12,347 nucleotides of DNA, taken from positions 1-12,347 of the forward strand of contig QKDV01000279.1 of the NCBI GenBank assembly GCA_003251955.1, written 5' to 3'. Of this stretch, positions 1-7,247 are shown one piece after another (within the stretch, counting starts at the first letter, position 1; each line of letters begins with the position of its first letter). The notes beneath the pieces are model-generated. The model was given only the letters and a program-made list of their open reading frames with translations, searched no databases and was not told the DNA's origin. The translations under genes and the position numbers were made by a program. Source of the stretch: Methanospirillum hungatei (GTDB taxonomy: Archaea; Halobacteriota; Methanomicrobia; Methanomicrobiales; Methanospirillaceae).

Positions 1-963
1 CTCAAAGACAAGAAACCCGGCTATGGTGATGAAAAGAGAGGAAAAAAGAATCTGAGAGGGGAAGAGGGAGAAGAACGCAAGGTCGCTGATGTTGATCAGA
101 AGTATCAGGATGTGGACAACCCGTTTGGCTTTCCGCCAGGTTTGAAAGACCGGTATGAGCCTCTCGGGGTGGCAGGGGATGACCCCTATGCACGGGTATT
201 TAAGGTACTGAAAAAGGATAACGGGAGTATCCGTGCCCTGAAGATCTCTCACATAAAGCAAGCCGGCAGTGAGATCCTGCGTAAGGAGGCATCAGTATGG
301 AGAAACATCAGGCATCCAAATATTGTCAGGTTGTATACAGCCGAGTTTGACGATGATCTGACCTTTCTGGATCTTGAATTCTTAGATGGTATCAGGTACA
401 GGGGAGGCTCTCTTACCTCTCTCTCCGCACTCCCCAAACCAATACGTGAGAAGTATGCTGTCTCATTGATCCGGGACGTTGCAAACGGCCTTAAGTACAC
501 ACACAGCCTTGGAATCAGGCATTACCACCTGCAGACCGGTGATATTCTTCTTACCCCGAAGATGCAGGCAAAGATTTCAGGGTATGCCAGGGGTAAGAAT
601 GAGCTTGGTTTCTCGGTTCCGGAATCTGATACCAGTAAGGCAACAGCAGCATATCTGGCACCTGAACAGAAGGATGAGGCTTTCTATGGAAACCCGGGAA
701 GAAAGACTGACATCTATCAACTTGGTGTGATTTTTTATGAACTCCTCACCGGTGCTCTCCCGTATTCCCGGCAGGCTGCTGACCGTGCTTCGGTCAAGTG
801 GGATGAATCCGGTGAGAACCCTCTGATTCTTCCCTCTAAATTCAGAAGTGAATTTTCCCGCTATGACAATATCCTCTCCCGAATGCTGGCAATGGATAAA
901 AAAAAGAGATATGCACTGGTTGATGAGTTCCTTGCAGATCTTGATGCTATAACTGCCTCCTGA
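1..963 (+). CDS. C-terminal part of a pseudokinase-domain protein (5' truncated by window edge)
   Basis: The frame is open from base 1, so the gene starts upstream; the GTG at 112 is internal. It gives 320 residues here (residue 1 = bases 1-3): a very charged linker (1-37), then a protein-kinase fold (about 50-315). Kept: VAIK Lys81, helix-C Glu96, HPN after helix C, APE (220-222), subdomain IX Asp237 and Arg303. Lost: the glycine loop reads G59-x-D61-x-x-A64-x-V, HRD is HYH (174-176), the catalytic-loop Asn is Asp181 and DFG is GYA (194-196). Without the catalytic base and the metal-binding Asp and Asn, it is unlikely to transfer phosphate in the usual way. By analogy with the two downstream paralogues, the missing N-terminal part should carry a signal peptide, ectodomain, membrane segment and TPRs; that is inference. 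The next gene follows after 69 bases, probably in the same operon. Automatic annotation would probably call it a Ser/Thr protein kinase. Confidence 0.85.
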   Translation, partial: LKDKKPGYGDEKRGKKNLRGEEGEERKVADVDQKYQDVDNPFGFPPGLKDRYEPLGVAGDDPYARVFKVLKKDNGSIRALKISHIKQAGSEILRKEASVWRNIRHPNIVRLYTAEFDDDLTFLDLEFLDGIRYRGGSLTSLSALPKPIREKYAVSLIRDVANGLKYTHSLGIRHYHLQTGDILLTPKMQAKISGYARGKNELGFSVPESDTSKATAAYLAPEQKDEAFYGNPGRKTDIYQLGVIFYELLTGALPYSRQAADRASVKWDESGENPLILPSKFRSEFSRYDNILSRMLAMDKKKRYALVDEFLADLDAITAS

Positions 964-1024
964 ATATGCCTTCTGCTTAGATAAACCGATATGTAGATAT
1001 CTTTTCATGTGGATCTGATTCATT

Positions 1025-1028
1025 AGGA
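1025..1028 (+). promoter_or_regulatory. Weak Shine-Dalgarno (AGGA) of the second pseudokinase gene
   Basis: AGGA lies four bases before the ATG at 1033 and supports that start, which also gives a proper signal peptide. The 69-base gap from 964 shows no convincing BRE/TATA pair, so readthrough from the upstream gene is the simpler reading. Confidence 0.45.
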
Positions 1029-1032
1029 TAAT

Positions 1033-3528
1033 ATGTCCCGGATCCCGACCTTTGTCTTGTTGGTACTGGTCTGTCTCCTGATTCTGGTCCCGTCTGTTTT
1101 TGGTCAGGAGGAAGATTCAGGTGCATATAATGTCGGATTTGGGCTTTCATATGTCAAGGATACGATTCCTGACCGGTTGATACCAGGTCGTTCATATCCT
1201 GTTCTCATCACATTCAGAAATACCGGGCTTGTGACTTGGGAGAGGAAGAATCACCGTGTTGGGATGGTGTACGGTGGAAACCTGACAGAGGTGGTTGCAA
1301 TGCCATCCTATGTTGATCTTCCTGATGGCTCATCCGTGTCCCCTGGTAAAGAGGTCACATTTGCCGTATCAGTCCTCCCGGTGGGAGTTGCGGGAGAGTA
1401 TTTTCTTTCTTTTTATGTTGTTTTCCGTACTGCCCAGGGAGACCAACGGGTAACAGAAGTATGGACCAAAAAAATTACCATTGTCCCGACAGATGGTGTC
1501 TCTTCCCCCTTGAATGGTTCAATATTTGTAGATAGTGCCAGGCAGGAGTTCTCTGTGCTTCTTGGAGATCAGCCGATGGGATCTACTCCCTGTATCATCC
1601 CTGATCTGAGACCCGGTTCATATGTTGTGACAATCCGTAGTGAGGGTTATGACAAAACGATCAGTGTCTCGGTAGAAAAAAGCACGATATCCCGTGTTTT
1701 CATAGAAAATATTACTCAGGAACCGACTGTTAACTTCAAGAAGATAGACGTGGTCTCCAACGGGACACTGTTTGAGTATTTTGAGGCCAATATTCCATTG
1801 GTTGTCATTGTATTAGCCTTCGTGCTAGGCTGTATCGTGTTGATGATTCATAGTGTCAGGCTTCGAAGAGAGAAAGAGTCTGAAGCTAAAGAGAATCTTG
1901 AGAAAAAGGGAACGAAGAGATCTCTCGACGGTGCCTCTACTATGGAGGAGAAGGATCTGCTTGATGAATATCACCATAAGCATCACCTCTTCCAACAGGT
2001 CACATCAGATCAAGGCTCTGGATCTGATGCTGGTCCGAAGATCGTTGATGTTGGTGTAGGCAAGATGAAGAATGTCAGGAAATTTTCCCGTGACATGCTT
2101 GATAAGAACCGGCCTGAAGATGCTGAAGGTGGGCCTGGTGGAGGCCTAATTTCTGCAGTGGAGGAAGAATCGCAAACATCACTTGGAGTAAAACTGGATC
2201 ATCTTGATATAAAAACGGGATCAGCAGTAGCCCATATCTCTGCCATGAATCATTCAACTGATCCGTTATCAGTTGAAGGACTCCTGATAGGGCCGGGAAC
2301 CTCAATGCCACTCTCTGTCGATTTAACAGAGCCCTTTACCAACGAGTACGAGATGACTCTCTCACTTAAAGTCATCTCCCAGAAAGGACAGGAGTTCTAC
2401 CGATATATGCAGATACCCTACAACAAGGGTATTGCTCTTCTTGCCAGGGGCGTCGCTGAAAAGGCATATGAATACTTTAACCTTTTCAGGAAAATGCAGC
2501 CGGGCTCTGCCGATCCGTTAATAAAACAGGCAGAAATTCTCCTTCGCTGGGGCCTTGAGGAAGAGGCTGAAGCGATGTTAAAGGAGGCAGTAGTAATAGA
2601 TCCTGATAATCAGGAGGCACTTGAGCTCCTAAAGCAAATATCTACCAAAAAGGAGAAACGTGAAGCAGAAAAGAAAAAATATGCTGAAAAACCCAAGATC
2701 CCTGGATTTCCCGATCTCCTGAATGATCGGTACACCCCGATCCGTCTGCTCGGAAAGGATGCATTTGCCTCCATCATCCTGGTAATCAGAAATGATACCG
2801 GAGATCTTCGTGTATTAAAGATTGCTCATGAGGGTGTAGTTGTGGGCTCCTCTCTCTTCACTGAAATATCTGTATTGTACCAGTTGAAACATCCAAATGT
2901 TCTTAGAATGTATCGGGCAGAATACAACCCGACTCTCTTTCTCGAGTTAGAGTATGCATCAGGGATACCCTGTTCTTCAGGTCTGTGTAGAACCCTTGCT
3001 GATCTTGAACACCCGATACCTGAAGACACGATGATTTTGTTTGCTACCCAGATTGCCCAAGGTCTTGCATATCTCCATCAGAAAGGGGTCCGGCATTACC
3101 ACATCTCTCCACGGCATATACTTCTGGATGAGCCGATGACTCCTAAGATTTCAGGGATAATCCGGGAGTCTGTATCACGACTGGGAATGGATACAGTCTC
3201 ACCTGCCCTGTGCCCTGCCCCTGAGCAGATCAGCCGTGAAAAGTTTGGAAAAATGGGAAAAAGGACTGATATCTTCCAGTTCGGTGCAATATTGTACTGG
3301 CTGATGACCGGAAGATCTCCATATCCGGATGGCTCGGTCATTTCTGCCGGTGAGAATGGTTTTGTTTCTGGTGTGTATGTCTCTCCATCGATCTATCATC
3401 CGGAATATGCAAAGTATGAGCCTTTACTGAAAAAACTCCTGGCTTTAGATAAAAAAGAGAGATATAGTTCTGTTGAAGAATTTATCCTTGAATTAGAGCC
3501 CCTTATCCGGCATGGAGAATCCGAGTAA
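1033..3528 (+). CDS. Membrane-spanning receptor: Ig-like + PEGA ectodomain, TM, TPR, pseudokinase
   Basis: 831 residues. The ATG has a weak AGGA ribosome site seven bases upstream and is followed by a clear signal peptide (1-24). Ectodomain: an NBR1/CARDB-type Ig-like fold (about 35-152, with the typical RNTG...TW and PG...G-x-Y features), then a PEGA domain (about 158-226). One membrane helix at 254-273, followed by Arg-Leu-Arg-Arg, places the rest in the cytoplasm: a charged linker with an HHKHH cluster (314-318), a beta-rich domain (about 385-462), TPR-like helices (about 463-536), a Lys/Glu coiled linker, and a kinase fold (563-825). Kept: Lys596, Glu611, APE (729-731), Asp746, Arg810. 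Lost: glycine loop G574-x-D576-x-x-A579, HRD is HYH (688-690), Asn is His695, DFG is GII (708-710). The design suggests signalling from the cell envelope through a non-catalytic kinase fold. The ligand and output are unknown. It is a paralogue of both neighbours. Confidence 0.88.
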   Translation: MSRIPTFVLLVLVCLLILVPSVFGQEEDSGAYNVGFGLSYVKDTIPDRLIPGRSYPVLITFRNTGLVTWERKNHRVGMVYGGNLTEVVAMPSYVDLPDGSSVSPGKEVTFAVSVLPVGVAGEYFLSFYVVFRTAQGDQRVTEVWTKKITIVPTDGVSSPLNGSIFVDSARQEFSVLLGDQPMGSTPCIIPDLRPGSYVVTIRSEGYDKTISVSVEKSTISRVFIENITQEPTVNFKKIDVVSNGTLFEYFEANIPLVVIVLAFVLGCIVLMIHSVRLRREKESEAKENLEKKGTKRSLDGASTMEEKDLLDEYHHKHHLFQQVTSDQGSGSDAGPKIVDVGVGKMKNVRKFSRDMLDKNRPEDAEGGPGGGLISAVEEESQTSLGVKLDHLDIKTGSAVAHISAMNHSTDPLSVEGLLIGPGTSMPLSVDLTEPFTNEYEMTLSLKVISQKGQEFYRYMQIPYNKGIALLARGVAEKAYEYFNLFRKMQPGSADPLIKQAEILLRWGLEEEAEAMLKEAVVIDPDNQEALELLKQISTKKEKREAEKKKYAEKPKIPGFPDLLNDRYTPIRLLGKDAFASIILVIRNDTGDLRVLKIAHEGVVVGSSLFTEISVLYQLKHPNVLRMYRAEYNPTLFLELEYASGIPCSSGLCRTLADLEHPIPEDTMILFATQIAQGLAYLHQKGVRHYHISPRHILLDEPMTPKISGIIRESVSRLGMDTVSPALCPAPEQISREKFGKMGKRTDIFQFGAILYWLMTGRSPYPDGSVISAGENGFVSGVYVSPSIYHPEYAKYEPLLKKLLALDKKERYSSVEEFILELEPLIRHGESE

Positions 3529-3548
3529 TAAATGCCGATCTGTGTAAT

Positions 3549-5762
3549 ATGAAACTAAATCCATGTTTTGCTTTGTTGAGTAAACTGAAATGGTTTATAC
3601 TACTCATAATTATCATAACCGCTCTCCCGGCCTCTGGGGATACATCAGGTAACGCACACGATCAGACTCCTGATAATGGATCTCTTCAGGTACTGACCGG
3701 GTCACTTGCAATACAAGTCTCAATCGACGGGGATAACCAAGGGACGGCCCCTGTAAATATCAGTAATCTTCCTCCCGGCTATCATAATGTTCGTCTGGCT
3801 GGTGATGGTTTTGACCAAAATCTTGGAGCCATAATCCATCCTCATGAAGAGACTGTTCTTTCAATTGATCCAGATAGCCGGCAGTTCTGTATTACACAGA
3901 TCCATTCTGGTGACATCCCTGAAGATGAACCAATACCCCCGCTTGGTTTAGTTGATTATGCTATAATATTGGGTGTTTTTCTTGGCATTACTCTGATTGG
4001 TGCACATGCAACCCGCCGTGTTGCCTGGAAAATTAAAGACTCGGAAAAATCTCCTGATGAAAACCTGACCGTCATTTCAACTTCTGATACATCCTGTTCA
4101 GATACCTGGGAGATTGTCAGGAAAAGAGGCGTTGCAAAAACAGATCTTGTTCTCGATCCTCAAATGATGATCTGTGATGAGGGAGCAGCAGGGGAAGTTG
4201 TAGTAAGGGCAATAAACTGCAGTAGCCGGCCCATCCTTATCGAAGGGCAGTCCATCCCTAAAGGTGAATGTCGTAGTATTCTCATCCGGGTTCCAACCGA
4301 TGTTCCCGGAGACCAGTATTTTGTTAAGAATATCCCGTATATTGATAAAGCAGGTCGTGAGTTCATCAGAGATGTGATGCTTCGCTATCGTGTCCGTCCA
4401 TTAAATCCGGCCCTTGACTGGTCGTTTGTCGGATTTACATATGATGAAAGCAGTACTGTTGCTGTTGTCAGGATGACTAACTCTTCATCCTACCCTATTT
4501 TTGCAGGTAATATTGAGATCCCGCCTGACACCGATGGTGAACTGGAGTTTAAACTGGGTGATCCGGATGCTGACAGACCTGAGGTAAGCAGGATTATTTC
4601 TGTAAAGCCTGGGATAGAGGCAGTGCCAGACATGAAACTCAGAATCGTGATTCCGTTTAATAGCGGGGTTCTGCTGCAGTCTCAAAAGATGTTTGATGAA
4701 GCCCTCATGTACTATGAATCCCTTTTTACCAGGGATCCGGGCTCTGCTGATCTCTGGGTTCAGAAAGGAATGATTCTGGAAAAACTGGACAAAGCAGAGG
4801 AGGCAGGTTTCTCGTATCGCCAGGCACTCGATATCGACCCTGTCAATCCCAATGCTTTGAGATTTGTGAAAAAGTCCGGAAATGGGAAGAATGGAGATAT
4901 AACTCCTGAATGTTTAAAAGATCCGGATTTCCCGACTGACCTTGTGGATCAGTATACTCTGGTCTGTTCAATAGGTTCTGATCAGAGCGGTGATATTTTT
5001 CTTGTAAAACGGACGAGTGATTCGTCTGTTAAGATGATAAAGGTCATCGACTCTGCTCTTGCCAGGATTCCTTCATTTAAGGATATAGTTCAGGTATGGC
5101 GGTCTCTTCATCACCCTCATATTCTTCATCTTGTCGCCTACGAGACAGAACCTATTCCGTTCCTTGTTGCAATTCCTCCTGAAGGGGTGCTTCAGAAGGG
5201 CAGAAGACGTTATTCAATATCTGATCTTTCTCTCCCAGTTCCTAAACGAGCCGCAGTTAAGATGATACTTGGGCTATGTAGGGGTCTTTCATATATGCAC
5301 CACCAACAGGCAGATCACTTCCTTCTTGACCCTGCACAAATATTTCTGGATAAGAATCTCCATGTCAGGATTGGTGGGTTTGATGGTGCAGTTATCCTGT
5401 CAGATAAGGAATGTGGTTCTGCCTGCTGGATGCTGGCTCCTGAACAGGTGCAACCCGAGCAGTACGGCAGTCCCGGGGAAAAGGCTGATATCTTCCAGGC
5501 AGGGGCGATATTGTACCTCCTTCTCACCGGTTCACGCCCATTTGGTAAGAATGATCGGTTGAGTTCGGCTGCAGAAATTTGGGATCTTTCTTCCTCAGAG
5601 CTTGTTTTGCCTTCACAGATAAGACCAGACCTTGGGTTATTTGATGAACTGATCACCCGGAGTCTGTCTATTGATCAGAATGAGAGATACGACTCATTTG
5701 ATGAAATGCTGGTTGAGATTGAGTCAATCCAATCTATTATTGAAGGTAAGAACCACAAGTAA
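3549..5762 (+). CDS. Membrane-spanning receptor: PEGA ectodomain, TM, duplicated beta domain, TPR, pseudokinase
   Basis: 737 residues, starting 20 bases after the previous stop codon with no strong ribosome site, so probably cotranscribed. Signal peptide 1-30; a short ectodomain that is essentially one PEGA domain (about 45-106; SIDG, APVNISNLPPG and a GF are visible); membrane helix about 134-153 followed by Arg-Arg. In the cytoplasm, two successive beta-rich units (about 197-283 and 290-370) resemble the single one in the upstream paralogue, then TPRs (about 371-437) and a kinase fold (466-726). This is the most degenerate of the three copies: Lys498 is kept but helix-C Glu is Asp512; HRD is HFL (590-592), the catalytic Lys is Asp594, Asn is Gln597 and DFG is GFD (610-612). 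The glycine loop is G476-x-D478-x-x-G481. APE (630-632), Asp647 and Arg713 remain, so the fold should be intact. Phosphotransfer is unlikely; a ligand-binding or scaffold role is inferred. Confidence 0.87.
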   Translation: MKLNPCFALLSKLKWFILLIIIITALPASGDTSGNAHDQTPDNGSLQVLTGSLAIQVSIDGDNQGTAPVNISNLPPGYHNVRLAGDGFDQNLGAIIHPHEETVLSIDPDSRQFCITQIHSGDIPEDEPIPPLGLVDYAIILGVFLGITLIGAHATRRVAWKIKDSEKSPDENLTVISTSDTSCSDTWEIVRKRGVAKTDLVLDPQMMICDEGAAGEVVVRAINCSSRPILIEGQSIPKGECRSILIRVPTDVPGDQYFVKNIPYIDKAGREFIRDVMLRYRVRPLNPALDWSFVGFTYDESSTVAVVRMTNSSSYPIFAGNIEIPPDTDGELEFKLGDPDADRPEVSRIISVKPGIEAVPDMKLRIVIPFNSGVLLQSQKMFDEALMYYESLFTRDPGSADLWVQKGMILEKLDKAEEAGFSYRQALDIDPVNPNALRFVKKSGNGKNGDITPECLKDPDFPTDLVDQYTLVCSIGSDQSGDIFLVKRTSDSSVKMIKVIDSALARIPSFKDIVQVWRSLHHPHILHLVAYETEPIPFLVAIPPEGVLQKGRRRYSISDLSLPVPKRAAVKMILGLCRGLSYMHHQQADHFLLDPAQIFLDKNLHVRIGGFDGAVILSDKECGSACWMLAPEQVQPEQYGSPGEKADIFQAGAILYLLLTGSRPFGKNDRLSSAAEIWDLSSSELVLPSQIRPDLGLFDELITRSLSIDQNERYDSFDEMLVEIESIQSIIEGKNHK

Positions 5763-5826: not shown

Positions 5827-5834
5827 TTTTTTTT
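5827..5834 (+). terminator. Oligo-T terminator of the pseudokinase cluster
   Basis: Eight consecutive T on the plus strand, 64 bases after the stop codon at 5760-5762 and without an obvious hairpin, match the U-run termination signal of archaeal RNA polymerase. The run overlaps the stop codon of the convergent minus-strand gene (TAA complement at 5833-5835). The 70-base gap 5763-5832 holds no gene. On the minus strand only a T5 run (5810-5814) is available as a possible terminator for the opposite transcript. Confidence 0.6.
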
Positions 5835-6363
5835 ACGCACAGTTGCATGAGCGGACTTTCGCTTTGGATGTTATCTGCTTAACATTCAATTGATCCGGTG
5901 CTGATGCCTTGTTATTCTCTGTGTCCTCTCCTCCCTCTTCCTTACCCCGGTTTATCGAAACAGTTAATGTGTATTCACCGGTCGGAACTCCATTTGGTAC
6001 AAGATAGTCTGGAGTGACTGTTCGTTCTTCCCCTGCTTTGAATACAGAGAAAGTGTTGTTCTTTGAGATCAACTGATACTTTCCGAGAAATGCCTGAAGT
6101 TGGACCAGTTGTGATGAGGTGTCATCTGAACCTGCATTTATTATCGTGATATTAGGGCTGATATATGTCCCTGGCTCAATCCACGCGGTCTGAACCGGCA
6201 TTGAAACCTTTGTAATCTCGTAATTAGGAACTTTCACATTGTTTTCATCATCCGTCTGGTTCAGGCTGGCATTGGAGACAGCCGAACTGGCCGGGATGCT
6301 TATCAGAAGAGTCAGGGTGAGCAAGACTAAAGAGACAGGTAAGATTTTTGATAAGATCATCAC
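5833..6363 (-). CDS. Secreted CARDB-like (Ig-fold) protein with a C-terminal CxC
   Basis: 176 residues if it starts at the GTG ending at 6363; the ATG one codon later (6358-6360) is equally possible and sits at the right distance from the TATA box for a leaderless start. A hydrophobic signal peptide (about 1-28, ending Ala-Ser-Ser-Ala) is followed by an Asn/Asp-rich stretch with several N-glycosylation sequons and a single Ig-like domain (about 45-163). It resembles CARDB adhesion-type modules: a pre-strand Pro-Gly, NITIINAG, a Pro-x-Gly-x-Tyr strand, and E-x-x-x-NN near the end. The last residues contain a CxC pair (Cys173, Cys175), unusual at a protein end and a possible metal or disulfide site. 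No membrane anchor is visible, so it is probably released or bound to the surface layer. Function unknown. It converges on the pseudokinase receptors, but a partnership with their ectodomains is only a guess. Confidence 0.7.
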   Translation of the reverse strand: MMILSKILPVSLVLLTLTLLISIPASSAVSNASLNQTDDENNVKVPNYEITKVSMPVQTAWIEPGTYISPNITIINAGSDDTSSQLVQLQAFLGKYQLISKNNTFSVFKAGEERTVTPDYLVPNGVPTGEYTLTVSINRGKEEGGEDTENNKASAPDQLNVKQITSKAKVRSCNCA

Positions 6364-6409: not shown

Positions 6410-7247
6410 TTATTTTGCGTATGAACTATCACTGGATGGATGATCGTGAATCAATGAAGGCATGAGCACCTGGTTGAGACTTCCTATGACTAAATCCGCT
6501 GGATAGTACCTGGTAAATCTGCCGTCCCTCTCTATCCGGATCAGTCCGTCATCGGTGAGGTGCTGAACGCTTCGTGTAACAGTTGGGCCTGCAACTTGGA
6601 GAAGTTCTGCCAGTTCACCACGGGTGAGACCGGGCTTTTTGAGTATGATCCTGAGAATCTTTGAACTTGCTGCGGTCAGCATCCTTGATCTCAGGATCTG
6701 CTCTTCTGATGAGTATTTGCCATGATTCTCAAAGTAATGGCAATACACCCCCGATCGTTGTTGTCTGTATTTTCCCCCCGTCATAGAGCCGATCAAGATG
6801 ATACCTAAGTGTGCTCTCATTCATCCCGGTAATCTCTGTCAGTTTTTTGAGATCCACCCCGGGAACAGCAACAATCTCTTCGTATATCTGCTTCCTGCTC
6901 TCATGTTCAAGCAGATTCCGGTTTGTTATCCTTCGATATCCGTATGCAGCATATCTCCTGATTCGGTCGAGAAGCGATGTAGGCTGCGTAATGGATGCCA
7001 TTATTGGAATACATGCTCCGTTACAGGAACCTGCAGGCATTGTTCCAGGTGATGCAGCAGTGTTTGTCTTACAACTGCAGGAGTGGACCGACCCCTGACC
7101 TGCTATTGTCATGTGACAGGTGAGGCGGCCTGTTGAACTGTCAGATGCACAGCAGGAACTTTTTCGCTCCATAGGAGAAGCAGGGAAACCTGACAAGATC
7201 GCGAGCATGAGAAAACCAGCAACAATCACGCCCGCCAGCAGTTTCAT
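6410..7247 (-). pseudogene. Membrane-anchored, Cys-rich, two-winged-helix regulator interrupted by a one-base frameshift
   Basis: Two overlapping frames together spell one protein. The first (ATG at 7245-7247, stop at 6729) has a hydrophobic N-terminal segment (1-22), a Cys-rich stretch with Cys32, 33, 44, 57, 59, 75 and 79, a basic segment and a first winged helix (about 113-168) that stops inside its wing. The second frame, ending at 6410, continues with the expected end of that wing (VYCHYFEN), then a complete second winged helix (recognition helix around GPTVTRSVQHL, wing ending RYYPAD). The 838-base span is one base too long for an open frame; removing one G from the run at 6748-6752, or the run at 6774-6779, restores about 278 residues. 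Tandem winged-helix proteins behind a membrane segment are common in Methanomicrobia and are thought to be one-component regulators. The break may be a true mutation, phase variation or a sequencing error. The targets are unknown. Confidence 0.7.

Follow-up and report, generated by a model that had tools for sequence, protein, structure and literature searches.

Can a kinase fold serve as a pure receptor scaffold in an archaeon, and would such a scaffold be read by an active kinase or by tetratricopeptide repeat (TPR) partners? Archaeal Ser/Thr signalling has been little studied (excerpts of PMC5682000), and the locus described here makes both questions testable in archaea. It lies on a stretch of 12,347 nucleotides from Methanospirillum hungatei, hereafter the window, which is the entire contig C234 (QKDV01000279.1) of a Methanospirillum metagenome-assembled genome (MAG; assembly of 1.64 Mb, 67% complete, 316 contigs). 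Three kinase-fold open reading frames (ORFs), called g1, g2 and g3, follow one another there on the forward strand. Their conservation suggests that this dead-kinase array works by holding partners together and not by phosphorylating them, because the catalytic residues are lost and yet the genes are kept by selection.

Architecture of the array

The three genes and their parts are as follows (window coordinates; residue numbers are those of each protein; aa, amino acids; TM, transmembrane).

1..963, +, g1, last 320 aa of a pseudokinase receptor, its 5′ part lost at the contig end (PF00069, 99.6 bits)
520-552, +, g1 degenerate catalytic loop HYHLQTGDILL (kinase-domain alignment)
574-594, +, g1 DFG site ISGYARG, Gly at the Asp place (kinase-domain alignment)
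1033..3528, +, g2, full-length pseudokinase receptor, 831 aa (PF00069 81 bits, PEGA 33.8 bits, TPR below cut-off)
about 1120-1500, +, g2 Ig-like beta region before PEGA (model beta strands aa 40-150)
1516..1677, +, g2 PEGA domain of the ectodomain, aa 162-215 (Pfam)
1765..1866, +, g2 predicted TM helix, then a positively charged stretch, C-terminus inside (hydropathy maximum 3.22 at aa 245-278; model helix 254-292)
2182..2682, +, g2 cytoplasmic beta domain aa 384-461 and TPR helices aa 463-550 (model; TPR_19)
2701..3471, +, g2 pseudokinase domain (Pfam, kinase-domain alignment)
3094-3126, +, g2 catalytic loop HYHISPRHILL (kinase-domain alignment)
3148-3168, +, g2 DFG site ISGIIRE, Gly at the Asp place (kinase-domain alignment)
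3549..5762, +, g3, full-length pseudokinase receptor, 737 aa (PF00069 61.3, PEGA 29.5, TPR_8 34 bits)
3714..3821, +, g3 PEGA domain of the ectodomain, aa 56-91 (Pfam; model strands 44-119)
3930..4016, +, g3 predicted TM helix (hydropathy 2.28 at aa 128-156; model helix 135-165)
4146..4880, +, g3 cytoplasmic beta region aa 200-368 and TPR helices aa 372-444 (model; TPR match)
4923..5744, +, g3 pseudokinase domain (Pfam, kinase-domain alignment)
5316-5348, +, g3 catalytic loop HFLLDPAQIFL (kinase-domain alignment)
5370-5390, +, g3 DFG site IGGFDGA, Gly at the Asp place and Asp at the Gly place (kinase-domain alignment)

All three PF00069 scores exceed the curated cut-off of the Pfam profile. The genes are separated by gaps of 69 bp (g1/g2) and 20 bp (g2/g3), and g2 and g3 overlap by 4 bp at two related loci, L027 and L028. 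This packing is operon-like, and the paralogues are probably expressed together. The order of parts is a signal-peptide-like segment, an ectodomain, a TM helix, a cytoplasmic part and a C-terminal pseudokinase; the N-terminal hydrophobic segment and a single internal TM helix were found in 5/5 proteins tested (window g2 and g3, and three g1 orthologues). Structure models of moderate confidence (mean predicted local distance difference test 69.9 for g2 and 71.0 for g3) place the beta strands of the Ig-like region and PEGA of g2 outside, PEGA alone for g3, and the beta region, TPR helices and kinase fold inside.

Since g1 is truncated in the window, its layout is best seen in its orthologues of the genus, which are 676-702 aa long and carry a signal-peptide-like segment, an Ig-like region, PEGA and a TM helix. 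The window copy keeps a charged linker (aa 1-123), whose initial 42 aa can be aligned to that of these orthologues, and the pseudokinase domain from about aa 124. N_BRCA1_IG is matched by 8/10 g1 (best E 5e-4, the scores seen being below the cut-off of 28) and is confined to g1 orthologues, being absent for g2 among the matches listed. PEGA is found at E <= 0.05 in 9/10 g1, the tenth being the truncated window copy, and in 32/34 g2 homologues, and TPR_19 at the same threshold in 32/34 g2 homologues. In the window the TPR score is above cut-off in g3 and below it in g2. The heading of the sequence-only reading spoke of three TPR-pseudokinase receptors; this description fits g2 and g3 but must be dropped for g1, as the profile search detected a TPR family in 0/10 g1.

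Loss of the catalytic residues

Catalytic positions were compared in an alignment of 71 kinase domains, 31 from arrays (12 g1, 11 g2 and 8 g3) and 40 related non-array domains, the latter being best-scoring matches and followed-up loci from Methanospirillum and other members of the order, and not a census. Left out were L037_g2frag, which ends before the catalytic loop, L036_g3frag, which has no kinase part, five identical duplicates, and the kinases of contigs C249 and C62. Three larger alignments complete the picture: A1 with 10/12 g1 (without the incomplete L035 and L037), A2 with 34/35 database g2 (without the fragment P0022) and A3 with 13 g3 rows, which include the near-duplicates P0067/L027 and L028/L031.

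The Asp of HRD and the Asp of DFG are both absent in 31/31 array domains. Their catalytic loop starts with HYH, HYL, HFL or HNL, and Gly occupies the place of the DFG Asp in every one of them; in the window, the triplets aligned to the DFG site of intact kinases are G-Y-A (g1), G-I-I (g2) and G-F-D (g3). By contrast, HxD, Lys, Asn and D[WF]G are all present in 40/40 non-array domains. In the larger alignments, all 34 database g2 are without Asp at either site; every one of them has R-H-Y, and Gly in place of the DFG Asp, just as RHYHL and ARGxNExGF are common to 10/10 g1. Only the first glycine of the glycine loop is kept in g1 and g2. In g3 the alphaC Glu is lost in 8/8 domains and Arg replaces the beta3 Lys in 5/8, this Lys being kept in all three window genes. 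When pseudokinases are defined by loss among Lys, HRD Asp and DFG Asp, two or three of these residues are missing in each of the 31 array domains. The kinase fold is nevertheless kept, since A1, A2 and A3 all show an invariant P-E-Q where the activation segment ends and an invariant D...G in helix F. We infer that g1-g3 would not carry out Mg-ATP phosphotransfer.

The core of the sequence-only reading, three adjacent same-strand paralogues with their catalytic residues gone, is therefore borne out in the window and extends to every array member examined across the genus; intact HRD or DFG motifs at this locus, named beforehand as a finding that would speak against it, were recovered in none of the 31 array domains. 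It had also anticipated that annotation would hide this point, and among nine named g2 relatives six are indeed called 'protein kinase', the other three being 'TPR repeat protein'. The 'protein kinase' label carried by many array proteins is thus misleading.

Origin and selection

In a maximum-likelihood tree of the 71 domains, all array domains fall on one side of a branch supported at 100/99, separate from the intact kinases that Methanospirillum also encodes. Each paralogue is monophyletic (support 95/90 for g1, 100/99 for g2 and 100/100 for g3); the details are less sure, as the tree is rooted at its midpoint and has long branches that meet, including that of g3. The simplest history would be that catalysis was lost once at this locus in Methanospirillaceae, followed by tandem duplication in Methanospirillum.

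The ratio of nonsynonymous to synonymous substitution rates (dN/dS) in the pseudokinase part is 0.029-0.086 for g1 (7 pairs), 0.069-0.129 for g2 (5 pairs), with 0.281 in one mosaic pair, and 0.113-0.164 for g3 (3 pairs, 2 further pairs being not calculable). It thus lies at 0.03-0.16 in 15/16 calculable pairs, these NG86 estimates being rough, since dS exceeds 1 and is saturated in most pairs and four g3 comparisons gave no dS. Such low values indicate that the array genes are maintained pseudokinases under purifying selection and not decaying ones. As both Asp are lost in 31/31 domains, which form a single clade under purifying selection, a non-catalytic role is the best reading of the array.

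Distribution and genomic neighbourhood

All 11 other Methanospirillum genomes searched carry the array, either complete or truncated where a contig stops. On contigs that reach far enough, the gene order is constant: ribosomal genes come first, followed by secY, a nucleotide-kinase-like gene (AAA_17 in Pfam, which we take to be adenylate kinase), an EMC3-like gene (PF01956, 168.8 bits), a cytidylate-kinase-like gene, usually one opposite-strand gene, then g1, g2 and g3. The opposite-strand gene stands between the cytidylate-kinase-like gene and the array in 7/9 loci; it encodes an AI-2E-type transporter in L026 and an AMP-binding enzyme in L028, there is none in L034, and L029 has no listed ORF at this place. 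The sequence-only reading supposed that more members might lie upstream of base 1, but none was seen upstream of g1 in relatives.

In a sample of 199 genomes of the order, in which the g1 search scored at most five candidates per genome, full-length g1 was present in 8/8 other Methanospirillum genomes and, outside the genus, in 1/190 (G017), both counts among the matches listed. G017, of another genus, has a solitary g1 at the same locus position. Within this sample, the array thus occurs in Methanospirillum and, as a lone g1, in G017, and not in Methanomicrobiales at large. A scan of 84,980 species genomes for an exact peptide pattern gave six loci, three from Methanospirillum, two from 'Methanomicrobiales archaeon' and one from 'Methanospirillaceae archaeon', which understates the distribution, as more Methanospirillum genomes are known to carry the array. 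With g2 as query, homologue scores drop from 389 to 59 bits after 35 proteins, query included (about 8,000 candidates scored); of the other 34, six are assigned to an organism, namely five to Methanospirillum and one to a 'Methanomicrobiales archaeon'. The corresponding g3 search (about 8,000 candidates scored) drops after six proteins and understates g3, since it missed the hungatei-type g3 (28% identity). By database names, the locus is present in the cultured species M. hungatei, M. stamsii and M. lacunae. At this locus, a whole set of receptor-like proteins in cultured species is non-catalytic by sequence and yet under selection.

Comparison with known systems

The kinase fold and the single-pass receptor layout are shared with Hanks-type receptor Ser/Thr kinases (PknB/PASTA), and PknB chains head the lists of matching solved structures. 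The array differs by the absence of the catalytic Asp, by an ectodomain made of Ig-like and PEGA parts instead of PASTA, and by its C-terminal kinase part, which in PknB is at the opposite end. The PASTA kinase profile NF033483 gives 94.3, 53.1 and 49 bits (g1 represented by L028), below its cut-off of 450. The intact DWG kinases of Methanomicrobiales are the closest domains outside the array, at about 25-34% identity to the g3 domain, and have the catalytic Asp that the array does not keep.

Membrane pseudokinases of other organisms offer functional parallels. EssB/YukC is a single-TM protein whose cytoplasmic pseudokinase has degraded catalytic motifs and which scaffolds the type VIIb secretion machine (excerpts of PMC12599244). 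Its kinase fold is N-terminal (residues 9-211; PMC12599244, Table 1), whereas that of the array is C-terminal, after signal peptide, ectodomain and TM helix; no type VII secretion gene appeared among the Pfam-scanned neighbours, which are part of all neighbours, no genome-wide search being made. MviN (ActPs3) of Mycobacterium tuberculosis, also a pseudokinase at the membrane, controls cell-envelope synthesis through a partner that it recruits (excerpts of PMC12599244). ActPs3 has lost the Lys (VALT) and has deletions in the activation loop (same excerpts), while g1 and g2 keep the Lys and the array keeps P-E-Q; moreover, MviN is fused to a MurJ-like flippase, and array proteins have one TM helix besides the signal-like segment and no flippase part. 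By analogy, EssB/YukC and MviN are precedents for non-catalytic membrane pseudokinase scaffolds; as domain order and residues differ, neither is a family match.

Archaeal pseudokinases have been reported in 2% of archaeal proteomes (Kwon et al. 2019, as cited in PMC10211241). Those surveyed are, like the array, without catalytic residues, and the available excerpts of PMC10211241 name no receptor array, PEGA/TPR architecture or Methanospirillum locus. Our literature search, which left most subscription papers outside, found no published description of this locus or of an archaeal pseudokinase receptor array, and no paper on Mhun_2223-2226, the putative tags obtained by counting genes back from Mhun_2263.

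The kinase part also attracts profiles of anti-phage kinases (PD-T4-6, mad6 and PglW of PADLOC), with best matches in or around it of up to 116 bits and no curated cut-off. MADS6 of NCBIfam gives 58.7-98.3 bits against a cut-off of 460, and no defence neighbour was seen among the window proteins scanned with Pfam. To us the PADLOC matches look like generic kinase matches, and a defence-system identity, though possible, was set aside.

Proposed function and alternatives

On balance, we lean towards g1-g3 being non-catalytic single-pass receptors or scaffolds, with the ectodomain at the envelope and the pseudokinase, together with TPR in g2 and g3, docking cytoplasmic partners. The ectodomains would face the space under the S-layer and sheath, where the Ig-like region and PEGA may touch the cell envelope or sense its state. 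On the cytoplasmic side, the kinase fold could act as a docking or allosteric module, together with the linker in g1 and with the beta region and TPR in g2 and g3; its partner would presumably be either a TPR ligand or an intact kinase that the cell also encodes. The paralogues are co-located and share their origin; g1 and g2 probably form a single complex, joined by g3 in genomes that have it. A bolder version, possible although we would not count on it, is a wholly non-catalytic hub in Methanospirillaceae: after a single loss of catalysis, duplication would have produced an operon of co-acting receptors that pass on the envelope state by conformation or docking alone. Lineages would swap the g2 beta/TPR block as a cassette that sets partner specificity, the sensor and the pseudokinase remaining constant.

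Several observations weigh against the receptor or scaffold proposal. The full-length models have low predicted template modelling scores (0.32 for g2 and 0.42 for g3). g3 is absent from the locus in L032 and L035, two of the 11 Methanospirillum loci that could be judged, window included; there the small convergent gene described below comes directly after g2. g3 is thus an accessory member, and a complex of all three is not obligatory for the array. In g1 and g2, beta3 Lys and alphaC Glu are retained in 23/23 domains, so nucleotide binding or unorthodox chemistry is possible in these two. In g3, two residues beyond the position of the lost DFG Asp, where the glycine of DFG would be, an Asp is invariant (13/13 rows, some of them near-duplicates) and might be a migrated metal ligand. 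As for the envelope side, g1 lies 27-28 kb from a DUF3821 S-layer gene, located upstream on the same strand, in six genomes (G001, G003, G007, G009, G010 and G017), and in Methanospirillum this gene is beyond the ribosomal gene cluster. However, a DUF3821 gene also precedes the cytidylate kinase gene on its strand, at a distance of 25-41 kb, in 13/26 other genomes outside the genus (counted by eye, five matches being weak, below 45 bits), which points to an old order-wide S-layer/ribosomal gene synteny and not to one specific to the array.

How do other explanations fare with the same data? Partners of the HER3 or RAF/KSR type regulate active kinases, and the array could likewise consist of allosteric regulators, g1 and g2 pairing with an intact HRD/DWG kinase encoded elsewhere and switching it on or off. 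We judge this somewhat unlikely. An intact kinase (HRDIKPGN, DWG) is present in 8/8 Methanospirillum genomes with that locus examined, which makes an active kinase elsewhere, as the sequence-only reading had proposed, a possible partner; a second one (HCDIKP, DWG) is present in 5/5 genomes examined for it, and these DWG kinases have several hydrophobic segments (two of each kind with the whole frame inspected). The window MAG also encodes an intact kinase beside a PP2C phosphatase on C249. But no intact kinase is linked to the array, and neither DWG kinase is among the five kinase matches of this MAG, 67% complete as it is. Alternatively, the array would be tied to the secY neighbourhood because it organises export, as an envelope or secretion scaffold of EssB/YukC type connected to Sec/EMC3 or to the S-layer and sheath. 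Its position after secY, the EMC3-like and the cytidylate-kinase-like genes, the upstream S-layer gene and the presence of sheath homologues in 10/10 array-bearing genomes of the sample are what this would predict, yet it seems unlikely to us: none of the 13/26 genomes with the same S-layer synteny has a full-length g1 among the matches listed, sheath homologues also occur in 28/189 other genomes, and the opposite-strand gene in 7/9 loci makes co-transcription with secY unlikely there. 

A switch to other chemistry, such as SelO-like AMPylation or SidJ-like glutamylation, via the retained Lys-Glu pair of g1 and g2 is improbable. The invariant RHY loop and the Gly at the DFG Asp place could form a new active site, and pseudokinases with other activities exist (excerpts of PMC12599244). 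SelO and SidJ, however, keep DxG (DYG/DFG and DLG, respectively; PMC12599244, Table 1), whereas the array is without it, the D-x-G metal site of SelO being absent from window g1-g3; the glycine loop of g1 and g2 is reduced as described, and g3 has lost the Glu in all eight domains and the Lys in five. Least probable is that the genes are relics, duplicated kinase genes drifting to loss. g3 does evolve fast (48-57% identity in the kinase part among the window, L026 and L027), and two genomes lack it at this locus, but frames are open where complete in the other genomes of the genus, and the low dN/dS and the invariant non-catalytic motifs are not those of decaying genes.

The sheath was also considered on its own. 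Sheath-protein homologues were found in 38/199 genomes with a 377-aa query, taken to be the sheath protein, that was placed by gene count from the S-layer gene via the Mhun tags in excerpts of PMC11641113, and not by name. A link to the array was rejected, these homologues being more widespread than the array and not coextensive with it (38 genomes, 10 with array).

Two further kinase loci of the window MAG deserve mention. On C249 (L039, 478-4685), the PP2C gene overlaps the start of the intact many-TPR kinase gene (HLDLKPAN, IDFG), a conventional-looking pair. On C62 (L040, 3-3014), a protein of 1004 aa, truncated where the contig stops, has a weak kinase match (32.9 bits) with GDLRENN and IDTD, preceded by repeated beta-type regions recognised by eye.

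A mosaic block in g2

Over 11.5 kb, L028 (genome G003) and L031 (M. hungatei M59) are 83-100% identical in 200-bp steps save for one block of about 800 bp (L031 7900-8699), where identity falls to 56-66%. This block spans the g2 linker, beta domain and TPR, that is, the region from TM helix to pseudokinase. At the protein level, the ectodomains are 94% and the kinase parts 93% identical, against 32% for the linker, 46% for the beta domain and 53% for TPR. Elsewhere, the closest TPR part is that of P0031 (72%), the closest beta part reaching 58%, and one other pair, P0010/P0011, displays a milder dip of identity in the beta part. The clear mosaic case is one event in one MAG, and both cassette exchange and a chimeric assembly are possible origins. 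If real, the M59 replacement marks the linker/beta/TPR block of g2 as swappable, perhaps as a partner-specific cassette.

Neighbours of the array

Downstream of g3, a TPR-type protein with a signal-like segment is encoded in 5/10 loci and may be a further component; its C-terminal TM helix is clear in L027. Its families were scanned in L027 and L028, the other loci being assigned by resemblance.

L027, 4794-6110, TPR-type protein after g3
L028, 5276-6400, TPR-type protein after g3
L029, 16191-17357, TPR-type protein after g3
L031, 11939-13063, TPR-type protein after g3
L033, 4603-5799, TPR-type protein after g3

In the window, the array is followed by a convergent gene.

5833..6363, -, gene of a small secreted protein whose C-terminus bears a conserved CxC (array neighbour)

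This small beta-type protein adjoins the array in 9/10 loci with that side visible, CxC being present in 9/9; the two copies scanned gave no Pfam family above cut-off. Beyond it, a winged-helix-type gene (6410-7247, -) is split into two overlapping frames where L026 has a single frame of 278 aa; the two are 73% identical and differ in length by one base, pointing to a frameshift or an assembly error in the window copy.

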